DNA of 64,000 nucleotides from positions 1,726,260 through 1,790,259 of the forward strand of contig MCGT01000001.1 of NCBI GenBank assembly GCA_002104935.1. Reading direction: 5' to 3'. Source of the DNA: Hesseltinella vesiculosa. Its lineage: Eukaryota; Mucoromycota; Mucoromycetes; Mucorales; Cunninghamellaceae. Made by a program: the position numbers and the translations under genes. The first letter of the stretch is position 1. Each line of letters begins with the position of its first letter. The notes under the pieces are model-generated. The model was given only the letters and a program-made list of their open reading frames with translations. It searched no databases and was not told where the DNA came from. Shown here in pieces: positions 3,063 to 8,215 of this stretch.

Positions 3063-6000
3063 TTACAACTTGTCATAGTAGTTTTCGTAGCCGGGAATCT
3101 CTTCCTTGAGACCCTTGCGCTTACGGATGGTCTTGACGATTTCTTGGGTCTTACCAGGTTCCAAGGGAGTACCTTGCATGGCTTGCCAGTGATCGAAGAC
3201 AGCTTGAGGGAAGGCTTGACCAGAGGTGGCGGCACGGAGATCGCTGGAGAAACCGAAGGATTCGTTGACGGGCAAGTAAGCCTTGACGGTCATCATGGGG
3301 GTACCGATCTTTTGTTCTTCAGAGAAGACAACACCACGACGACGGTTAAGAACAGAGTAGATACCACCGATGGCAGATTCGGGACATTGGACTTCGACTT
3401 GGTACATGGGTTCTTGGATACCGGGAGTGGCAGTCAAGACGGAGGCGTACACGACACGACGGAAGGTGGGGATGATTTGACCACCACCACGATGGATAGC
3501 ATCAGCGTGAAGAGTGACATCCAAGATGTTGAAGCGACAACCACGCAAGTTTTCTTCGCACATAGGGCCTTCCTTGGTGGCCCATTGGAAAGCGGCAACA
3601 CAAGAATCCTTGATTTCGTTCAAGTATTGGACAGCCTTGGTGACATCGACAACCAAGTTAGGACCGGTGGCGTCGGGACCGAAACACCAGATCTTACGGG
3701 CTTCAGTGACATCCCAGTTGAATTCGTCGGCCAAGATACGGGCACGGGCCTTGAAATCGTCCTTGGGACCGACCTTGCCTTCTTCGATGGCCTTGGACAG
3801 TTCTTCGTCGATAGGCATGGCCTTCATGTAGACACGGTTGTGCTTGTTGGGAGACTTGGACAAACAGTCGATGGAGGATTCGGCAGTGACGGTTTCACGG
3901 TATTGGACAACAGGGTCACCGGTGCGAATGGGGACTTGAGCGTGGTCTTCTTCCAAATCCTTCAAACAGATTTCCAAGTGCAATTCACCAGCACCGGCAA
4001 CAATGTGTTCACCAGAGTCGGAGGTGAAGGTCAACACACAGGGATCGGACTTGGCCAAACGCTTGAGACCTTCGACGAGCTTGGGCAAATCGTTGGCGTT
4101 CTTGACTTCGACGGCCACTTGCACGACAGGGGAGACAGAGAACTTCATGACCTTCATGTTGTGGGCAACTTCAGAGGTGGTGATGGTACCGGACTTGACC
4201 AAGAATTGATCGACACCAACAAGACCGATGATGTTACCAGCGGGACAGTCATCGATGGCTTCGACACCACGACCCATCATGAGGACGGTACGTTGGATGG
4301 ACTTGACGTGCAAATCGGTCTTGGTACCGGGAACAAAGTTGGGGCCTTGGATACGGACCTTCATACCGGCACGGGCAGTACCAGAGAAGACACGACCGAA
4401 AGCGTAGAAACGACCCTTGTCAGAGGTGGGCACCATCTTGGAGACGTACAACATCAAAGGACCCTTGGGGTCACAGTCACGGATACCGATGGCACATTCG
4501 TCATCAGCGGGACCTTCGTACAAGTTGGGCACACGATAACGTTGGGAGGTTTGGGGAGAGGGCAAGTGGATACAGATCATTTCCAAAAGAGCGTCACCAC
4601 AGGGCAAGAACTTGCGCATGACAACCTTGAGCAATTGCTTGCCTTCCAAGTCCTTTTCGTCGGACTTCAAGTTGATTTCCAACTTTTCGACCAAGGTGTT
4701 GACTTGGTCCTTCTTGAAGTTCATGACAGCATCGAAGATCTTGAAGATAGGGTCCAAGATGAACATGTTGAAAGCACGTTCCAAAGGCTTGCCATCGGCA
4801 CCAGTGCTCTTGGTGGACCACTTCTTGGTCTTGGGGTTGAAGTAGTTTTCGCCCCACAACTTTTGCATCATCTTTTCCTTGTCGACACCGAACTTCTTGG
4901 AGTAGCGGACAGCGAATTGACGCAAGGTGAAACCCCAACCGTGCAAAGCAGAGGCAAAGGCAACGGTACCGTTTTCAGGCTTGACTTGGACATCACCAAG
5001 AGCTTCATCAAAGTAGGTGGCAATGATGACGTTGACGGATTCAATGGTACGAGCAAAGGCCTGGAAAAAAAACAAATCAGCCATCGATGCTGCGAACAAC
5101 AAAAGGGGGAGTGAAAGAACTTACGTTGTACAATTCTTCCTTGCCCAATTGCAATTCCAAAAGAGCACGATCAACCTTGTTGATGACAACAACAGGCTTG
5201 ATACGTTCACCAAGGGCTTGACGCAACACGGTTTCGGTTTGGACACACACACCGTCGATACAGTCAACAACGACCAAAGCACCATCAGTGACACGGAGAG
5301 CAGCAGTGACTTCAGAAGAGAAATCAACGTGCCCGGGGGAATCGATCAAGTTGATCAAGAAATCAGGACCTGCAAAAGAAAAAAAAAATTAGAAATTGAG
5401 TTCGTCATCCACTTCCAAAAAAAAATTTTTTGTTCCCCCCCTCTTTTCTTGCGCCACCGAGGCGCAGGTGGATTGCTTACCATCGGTCTTTTGGTTCTTG
5501 ATTTCCTTGACATCTTCAGGATCGGGAAGTTGGAAATAAAGAGAGATGGCAGTGGACTTGATGGTAATACCACGTTCTTGTTCATCGGCACGGGTATCCA
5601 TGAAACGGGTTTCACCAGCACGACCAGTGGAGATAATACCAGCCTTGGCGACCAAAGAGTCAGACAAAGTAGACTTGCCGTGATCGACGTGAGCAATAAC
5701 GGACATGTTACGGACGTTGGTGACCTTGTCCATCAAGCCACGGATTTCATCGATAGTGAAATTCTATGAAAGTAGCATAAAGAGGTGGGAAGGTTAGGTT
5801 CTTTCCCAATGAATCAGGTAGGCAGGGGGCTTGAGGCCTGTTGCTAGTAACTTACAACTAATCAAATGATGAACAGACAAGAGAGAGAGAAAAAGGGACA
5901 GCACAAGGGGTTCATAGTAATATGGAGAAATAGGATATGAGTGAAACTTGACCCTTTGACAATCATTCCCCCCTTTTTCCTTAGTGGCATCCATCCATCC

Positions 6001-6103
6001 ATTCATCCATCAGGATTAGCATCATCTGTCACATGCCATCTTGCCCAGTGGCAAGAAGACGATCCCTTTGGTAACCAACTGTCTCTAGTGAGTTCTTACC
6101 CAT
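3063..6103 (-). CDS. Translation elongation factor 2 (eEF2), with a predicted 2-nt micro-exon
   Basis: GTP-dependent ribosomal translocase. Large exons at 5481-5763, 5125-5369 and 3063-5060 encode the G domain (AHVDHGKS P-loop, DSPGHVDF and NKVDR motifs), the diphthamide-histidine loop (ADAIHRGGG) and the C terminus ending NYYDKL. The 5481-5763 exon begins at the third conserved residue (NFTIDEIRG), so two codons, Met-Val, must come from upstream in phase 0. I find ATGG at 6100-6103 in a strong start context (AAG before ATGG) directly followed by donor GTAAGA, and a two-base TT at 5856-5857 bracketed by TAG and GTAAGT. Joining ATGG, TT and AAT gives Met-Val-Asn. Total 4+2+283+245+1998 nt = 844 codons including stop, that is 843 residues, matching the usual 842-844. 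The three large exons are certain; the first two tiny exons are inference. Confidence 0.93.
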
Positions 6104-6998: not shown

Positions 6999-8215
6999 TC
7001 AATTTTTTTTTTTAGTGGGAAGACCGTAGAGAAAGGTAGCTAAAAGGACAATGCTGGCACCGACTAAAAAGGAACCGTTGGGGCTAAAGTCAAAAAAGAG
7101 AGTGCTGAGGAGGCTCGACAGGAGGATGGACACAGACGTGGCAAAGGCTTTGAGGATGTTGTCGGCGTATTTCATGACCAGGGCAACAGCAAAACCCCCA
7201 GAGCCTGGTTGAAGATCACAATCCACGTTGATAGATGGTAGCCATAAAAGAAGCCATGGTGCCACACAAATGACCAGTCATTGAGTAGCAAAGCCAGCAC
7301 AGCAAACAACAAGGTGCACAGCCCAAGCTGCAGATTCCGGATCCACAGGTTTGTCGGGCCGGCTTTTTTGAGGATCTTTTCAAAAGAACAGCCTGCAAAG
7401 CCTGACGACAGGCAGCTGAGAAGGACGGCGATCAGACCAGTCCAGGAGGACGTGGGGGAGGAGCTATCACAACTCGAGGCGGATTCGTCCAGGGGAGACC
7501 ACTGCACAAGCGTGACGCCCATCATGAGCAGCATGAGTGCTAGCCATTGTCGAGGCACAAGCTGCCGTTGAAGCAAATACATCGAGAACATGGCGGTGGA
7601 CAAGATCTTGAGCTGGTAGGTCACCTGGAACGTAGCAGCTTCGAGATGACTTAGGGCAATGTACAGCAGATTGTTCTGGATCGCGTAGAGACTGGCGGGT
7701 ATCAACATGTAAAGGAGATCAGTAGACAATAGATGGTGGCGGAGCTCTTGCTTCCAGAGCACACAAAGGTTTGGCACAGATGCATGTTGCCAAAGAACAT
7801 GCACGCATACCAGCAGCTTGACACACTCCACCATGACCACCGCAGTCGAAGCTACATACAGCTCGGTGGGATCATTGTTAGTGACCCTGGACTGTCGCAT
7901 CACTAGCACAAGAATGCTGTTCTGGATCACAAGCACCAACAATGACAGTTGTTGCAAGGACAAGCCCCACGGCAATGGATCTATAGTTCACAATTGATAA
8001 GATTGCCTTGTTCTATGTGATAAAAGCATAGCTTACATGGAGGATCATTTGGAGGTGGCGTGGCCAGCGGCAAAAGAGGGGCTTGCCTTTTAGGAATCGT
8101 TCTTCTGGAAGAAAAAAGTGACATCCACAGGCATGGCTTGGGTAGTGAAATCAGAAAAAGTCTGAAAAGAAAAAAAAAAAAAAAAACGTTGGCAAAGGGG
8201 GTTGGATCCATTTTA
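6999..8215 (-). CDS. SLC35A-type nucleotide-sugar (UDP-galactose/CMP-sialate-like) transporter, one-base frameshift
   Basis: Predicted Golgi antiporter that exchanges cytosolic nucleotide-sugar for luminal nucleoside monophosphate. The main exon (7980 downward) encodes repeated hydrophobic spans and the family hallmarks: LVLVMRQSR near the start, NNLLYIALSHLEAATFQVTYQLKI, split here into shorter recognisable pieces, and KYADNILKAFATSVSI near the end. The reading frame breaks at the C5 run 7195-7199: the frame carrying FNQA runs out, and the frame carrying FAVALVMKYADN starts; one extra G in that run would restore the canonical order. An upstream exon ends at about 8038 (coding ...NDPP) and splices to about 7979; the first exon and start codon, probably between 8100 and 8215, are not resolved. 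Either a real null allele or a homopolymer sequencing error. Confidence 0.8.

Follow-up and report, generated by a model that had tools for sequence, protein, structure and literature searches.

A putative two-nucleotide internal exon at the start of the elongation factor 2 genes of Hesseltinella vesiculosa

The minus strand of the window, a 64-kb stretch of DNA from the fungus Hesseltinella vesiculosa, a member of the family Cunninghamellaceae in the order Mucorales, carries a gene for elongation factor 2 (EF-2), referred to below as g1, whose first two codons appear to be assembled from two very small coding pieces. The minus strand was read from position 7800 to 1800 and the gene was assembled by script, giving the following predicted features (window positions).

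6100..6103, minus strand: coding part of exon 1, ATGG, the start codon and the first base of the valine codon (context ACAAGATGG; also 4 nt in both paralogues)
5858..6099, minus strand: intron 1, 242 nt, GTAAGA...GATTAG (donor GTAAGA at 6099-6094)
5937..5941, minus strand: candidate distant branch point CTCAT of intron 1, predicted, with the branch A at 5938, at a distance of 80 nt from the 3' splice site
5860..5946, minus strand: AG-free zone of 87 nt upstream of the micro-exon acceptor (88 and 140 nt in the paralogues)
5856..5857, minus strand: micro-exon of 2 nt, TT, completing GTT (Val2), with GATTAG before it and GTAAGT after it (TT and TG in the paralogues)
5764..5855, minus strand: intron 2, 92 nt, GTAAGT...CATAG (CATAG ends at 5764)
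5793..5797, minus strand: intron 2 branch-point candidate CTAAC, ordinary, predicted, with the branch A at 5794, at a distance of 30 nt from the 3' splice site
5481..5763, minus strand: exon 3 of the rebuilt gene, phase 0, from Asn3 (AATTTC, first base 5763)
5370..5480, minus strand: intron 3, 111 nt, ordinary
5125..5369, minus strand: exon 4
5061..5124, minus strand: intron 4, 64 nt, ordinary
3063..5060, minus strand: exon 5, the remainder of EF-2 including the stop codon

Joining the 4-nt and 2-nt pieces to exon 3 (predicted join AAGATGGTTAATTTC) and removing the two further introns yields a product of 843 residues that starts MVNFTI. Residues 1-843 align end to end with residues 1-842 of yeast EF-2 (1n0u), as a full-length eukaryotic elongation factor 2, and yeast EF-2 in the PDB likewise starts Met-Val-x-Phe-Ser/Thr. 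The best protein match, 'elongation factor 2 [Hesseltinella vesiculosa]' of 843 aa, is identical to the spliced prediction letter for letter; the Met-Val of the public H. vesiculosa proteins may have its basis in RNA or in an annotation pipeline. The preliminary description of this DNA had placed ATGG/GTAAGA at 6103-6094, with GATTAG/TT/GTAAGT and a CATAG acceptor downstream of it, and all of these are found there; the rebuilt gene bears out its reading that the large EF-2 exon begins at the third residue, in phase 0, after CATAG. Another intron-bearing gene, which we take to encode an ADP/ATP carrier, starts at 1800-1980, likewise on the minus strand and about 1.1 kb downstream of the EF-2 gene.

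A search of the same genome with EF-2 residues 3-96 gave five matches, and the two closest besides the window were fetched and read. The paralogue set comprises the full-length genes g1-g3, the EF-2-like L009/L013 and L010 (54% and 38% identity) being left out. The starts of the two further genes, from exon 1 to exon 3, read as follows.

g2 (L011, contig C15): ATGG/GTAGGT, 191 nt, CTATAG/TT/GTAAGT, 132 nt, CTTAG/AATTTT
g3 (L012, contig C12): ATGG/GTAAGT, 163 nt, CATTAG/TG/GTAAGT, 104 nt, TATTAG/AATTTT

The start of 4 nt plus 2 nt is thus present in all three full-length EF-2 genes found in the genome, with TT in g1, TT in g2 and TG in g3, and in each of them the micro-exon is an internal exon of two nucleotides between complete GT-AG introns. 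The products of g2 and g3 (predicted joins ATATGGTTAATTTT and AAGATGGTGAATTTT) are 843 and 845 aa long and both start MVNFTI. The g3 prediction is also identical, in every letter, to a public H. vesiculosa protein, and no separate public H. vesiculosa protein for g2 was present among the matches listed. The earlier proposal that ATGG + TT + AAT yields Met-Val-Asn and an EF-2 of 843 residues is therefore supported by the same codon and the same exon size in both other full-length genes. A second ATGG, inside intron 1 of g2, could be joined to that micro-exon as well.

The three copies have diverged considerably. Protein identity is 94% between g1 and g2 and about 81% between g3 and either of them, while identity at fourfold sites among the copies is 0.52, 0.49 and 0.54 (Jukes-Cantor 0.77, 0.86 and 0.72). 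The pairwise similarity of intron 2 is not above that of shuffled sequences (the score of the real pair is equalled or exceeded by 97, 40 and 80 of 200 shuffles), and intron 1 retains some similarity between g1 and g2 (3/200 shuffles as high) and little in the other pairs (18/200 and 41/200). In g3, the more diverged copy, codon 2 is GTG rather than GTT, a synonymous wobble change that retains Val. The intron-1 donors are GTAAGA, GTAGGT and GTAAGT in g1, g2 and g3, respectively, the intron-2 donor is GTAAGT in all three, and all six acceptors end in TAG. With differences at about half of the fourfold positions and with introns that are near unalignable, the AG-TN-GTAAGT cassette has persisted as the sequence around it changed. 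The assessment of conservation leaves out an automatic three-way alignment, in which the g2 micro-exon was misplaced.

Elsewhere the copies differ in their introns. One intron, after Asn-Leu, is common to g2 (L011 1496-1551, PNL/VVDV) and g3 (L012 4268-4337, ANL/LVDT) and absent from g1, and the g1 intron at 5370-5480 is absent from g2 and g3. Since the former is missing from g1 despite g1 being closer to g2 than g3 is, and the latter is confined to g1, there is intron loss and gain among the EF-2 copies. Upstream of EF-2, a transporter-like gene, presumably for a nucleotide-sugar transporter, lies at both g1 (window about 7020-7800, minus strand) and g2 (L011 about 4280-5300, minus strand), the two sharing 48% identity over 279 aa; g1 and g2 therefore probably lie within a duplicated segment.

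Over the two strands of the 64-kb window the pattern YAG-TN-GTAAGT has a single occurrence, the micro-exon itself. Between the exon-1 donor and the exon-3 acceptor it arises in 3, 0 and 1 of 20,000 dinucleotide shuffles of g1, g2 and g3, and its loose form, YAG-TN-GTRNG, in 109, 153 and 119 of 20,000. We also scanned 600 nt upstream for any model supplying Met-Val as 6, 5+1, 4+2 or 3+3 nt, with GTRNG donors and YAG acceptors. The real sequences give solely 4+2 models through this micro-exon, one in g1, one in g3 and two in g2 that differ solely in the ATGG chosen, and any Met-Val model at all is found in 5, 10 and 9 of 5000 shuffles (g1, g2 and g3). An exon supplying Met alone, ATG/GTRNG, is absent from the 2500, 2408 and 2147 nt upstream of g1, g2 and g3. 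The string AAGATGGGTAAGA is found 5 times in the genome; at the remaining four copies (L001, L003, L004 and L005, about 1100 nt read at each) the EF-2 search had no match, and these were rejected as EF-2 loci.

The preliminary description had found no ATGGTN/GT upstream as far as 6300, which is correct: going upstream from exon 3, the first ATGGTN with GT or GC directly after it lies at a distance of 1052 nt. A distant exon of this kind could in principle supply Met-Val in one piece and splice directly to AATTTC, leaving the TT cassette to chance, and candidates are present in g1 (at those 1052 nt, with a GTGCTA donor) and in g3 (2123 nt upstream, with a GCGCTC donor). Both donors are poor, however, their positions are not common to the copies, g2 has no ATGGTN followed by GT or GC within the 2408 nt examined, and a chance TN cassette would need to arise three times; we regard such a one-piece exon as highly improbable.

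EF-2 starts in relatives were judged from protein records, the DNA comparison of the micro-exon being that of the three paralogues of one genome. A search of viral and of bacterial/archaeal contigs for EF-2 DNA from related fungi gave no relative. The best 120 of 7994 matches comprised 34 rows classed as Mucorales or Umbelopsidales, 53 from other named fungi (among them P0082, which we take to be an aphelid) and 33 that were dropped, namely metagenome rows lacking an organism name, rows with plant or animal names, and Bifiguratus P0050, another row with a start at MDKVTN. The genus placements of the rows, other than Hesseltinella and Umbelopsis, are our assumption. Among these best 120 matches the canonical MV-x-F(S/T) start is present in 11/34 Mucorales and Umbelopsidales rows versus 48/53 others (Fisher p 1.7e-8, the 34 rows not being independent, with two from H. 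vesiculosa and several per genus), and a non-canonical start in 23/34 versus 5/53. The 23 non-canonical rows among the matches listed fall into two sets. In eight of them NFT is preceded by an unusual or absent start (nothing in one row, M in two, and MG, MA, MPFPLQF, MDRSCKE and MVDRLLLIV in one each), and the MG and MA starts may be genuine; the other 15 start at a more internal residue, which in 13 rows is the equivalent of Met13. A second protein search gave no further recognisable Mucorales row among the matches listed.

The 13 rows of 34 that start at Met13 could be taken to mean that translation begins there (MDKVTN...) and that exons 1 and 2 are unneeded. Against this, the 48 canonical rows among the 53 other named fungi, as well as yeast EF-2, keep the Met-Val-x-Phe-Ser/Thr start, MVNFTI is the start of the public H. 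vesiculosa entries for g1 and g3, and the Asn3 boundary of exon 3 and the codons before Met13 are conserved among the three paralogues, where the changes, judged by eye, are mostly synonymous, so that a start at Met13 is hardly credible. The start pattern is instead what would be expected of a micro-exon before Asn3 that cannot be predicted, and any short first exon might have the same effect. The non-canonical starts are thus suggestive of a wider spread of the micro-exon, and we hold the chances that the 2-nt exon is ancestral in Mucorales and Umbelopsidales to be evenly balanced.

The consequences of mis-splicing can be read from each gene. Skipping the micro-exon would give MEFHYR-stop (g1), MEFYD-stop (g2) and MEFYNR-stop (g3), with the stop at codon 6 or 7; retention of intron 2 would bring a stop after 5, 25 and 21 residues, and retention of intron 1 after 24, 34 and 61 residues (g1, g2 and g3). 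The two bases are therefore required for the frame and the conserved Met-Val start in all three genes. This requirement also bears on a reading of the two introns as a stwintron-like nested intron, whose 5' part would interrupt the donor of an external intron and leave zero exon bases. The two introns are indeed almost adjacent and their sequential removal is plausible, and stwintrons are described from several fungi (PMC9024468 and others). Here, however, donor and acceptor are complete in each of the two introns, and the intervening two bases are those needed for the frame and Val2; as neither intron splits a splice element of the other, a stwintron is rejected on its anatomy and has next to no likelihood. 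A recursive ratchet point, i.e. a 0-nt exon, is ruled out by the two bases between AG and GT.

We consider it very likely that the EF-2 gene carries a genuine internal exon of two bases, with ATGG + TT + exon 3 from codon 3 giving Met-Val-Asn. The splice signals, the frame, the protein, the conservation in three copies and the chance level are all visible in the sequence itself.

Two bases are unable to hold an exon-defining complex, and sequential intron definition is therefore to be expected, the flanking introns most likely being excised one after the other. Intron 2, which is short and has a perfect GTAAGT donor and a branch-point candidate at an ordinary distance (CTVAY motifs at 30, 24 and 26 nt from the acceptor in g1, g2 and g3), would leave first; its removal would turn exon 3 into TTAATTTC..., so that intron 1 would then have an ordinary 3' exon. 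We somewhat favour this order over its reverse. A precedent is potato invertase, in which splicing around a 9-nt exon is reported to remove the second intron first (cited in the Discussion of PMC4674806), and the authors of that paper on an Arabidopsis 1-nt exon also argue for sequential intron definition.

Intron 1 has unusually long AG-free zones, of 87, 88 and 140 nt, versus 18-81 nt (median 31) in 11 other EF-2 introns. All three exceed all eleven others, a 1 in 364 rank result (counted by hand and post hoc over 14 introns), with one ordinary EF-2 intron having a zone of 81 nt; in the window background, an AG spacing of at least 80 nt is seen in 1.2% of cases. Long AG-free zones are described as marking distant branch points of human exons (PMC1431707). 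In intron 1 such a zone would let the branch point sit some 70-140 nt upstream, and a distant branch point would hold the U2 machinery off the U1 site two bases past the acceptor. The predicted candidates are CTCAT at 80 nt in g1 and CTCAC at 71 nt in g3, where CTCAT also occurs at 136 nt and at 4 nt (too close to serve), and there is no CTVAY motif in the AG-free zone of g2 intron 1. A role of a distant branch point in the splicing of the micro-exon is a tentative suggestion, to which we give slightly less than an even chance.

Exons shorter still have been described, and the earlier expectation that a two-base exon would be exceptional for a spliceosome has to be tempered, such an exon not being without precedent. 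A constitutive 1-nt exon is reported with RNA evidence for Arabidopsis APC11 (PMC4674806), another for plant VPS55, with conserved GTRAGT donors (PMC8831610), and a third for Fusarium CYP621A, which the abstract claims as the first for a fungal gene (PMC12940212). The APC11 and VPS55 exons resemble that of EF-2 in being ultra-short internal exons with canonical flanking introns, required for the frame, missed by annotation and conserved in homologues; they are of one base, from plants and RNA-proven, unlike the EF-2 exon, which is of two bases and fungal. CYP621A is closer in being fungal, in having been first inferred from protein conservation and splice signals, and in having gene models reported as wrong at the junction. 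It differs in belonging to a rarely expressed, read-supported ascomycete P450, whereas EF-2 is a core translation gene present in three copies in an early-diverging fungus; in both comparisons the EF-2 exon is a prediction from sequence.

Other unusual splicing arrangements share part of the anatomy. At a recursive splice site, ratchet point or RS-exon (PMC6224609), as here, an acceptor adjoins a donor and stepwise removal is expected, but the EF-2 mRNA would retain two bases completing Val2 and the EF-2 introns are short. Stwintrons (PMC9024468 and others) likewise involve two neighbouring fungal introns removed consecutively, differing in the split splice element discussed above. Exons with distant branch points (PMC1431707) share the long AG-free zone before the acceptor; those are human and often alternative exons, whereas the present case is a fungal micro-exon with zones of 87-140 nt and, in g1 and g3, candidate branch points predicted by motif. 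A literature search, partly of top-ranked matches and with most subscription journals outside it, found no paper on 2-nt exons, EF-2 micro-exons or Mucoromycota micro-exons. With 1-nt exons already known, the present analysis would add a 2-nt case, in a core translation gene and in three copies.

Intron 1 of g1 and g2 also shares a 15-mer, GATGGATGGATGCCA, which begins 104 nt after the A of the ATG (window 5985-5999, minus strand, and L011) and for which the 27-Mb genome yielded 4 exact matches. A second string that overlaps it, ATGGATGGATGCCAT, likewise has 4 exact matches, in EF-2 g2, in two apparent ribosomal-gene first introns and in one other place, and 12 more places, g1 included, match it with one mismatch; besides the two EF-2 introns, the loci of the two strings are L015/L019 and L021. 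The two ribosomal genes are presumably those of eL42 and eS6, and ATGGATGGATGCCAT lies 115 nt after the ATG of the eL42-like gene and 81 nt after a candidate ATGAAG/GT start of the eS6-like gene. The strings could be a control element in the first introns of translation genes. The eL42-like gene also has a Met-Val-Asn start, with a single intron directly after the ATG, unlike the 4+2 start of EF-2.

If a core translation gene has a two-base exon right at its start codon, and has it in each of the three full-length EF-2 copies found, then splicing around an exon of almost no length would need to be an efficient routine process. The three genes provide natural constructs, simple to assay, with which to ask which intron leaves first and whether a distant branch point enables such an exon. 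The exon may also account for the frequent misannotation of EF-2 starts in a large fungal group, and would be a caution for N-terminal annotation generally. A more far-reaching proposal, which we think unlikely, is that the exon is ancestral to Mucorales and Umbelopsidales, is present in most of their EF-2 genes, has a fixed splice order that a distant intron-1 branch point allows, and has been selected as a gate. If true, a skipped exon or the keeping of either intron would lead to an early stop, and the quality or the capacity of splicing would directly set the amount of EF-2 and hence translation.
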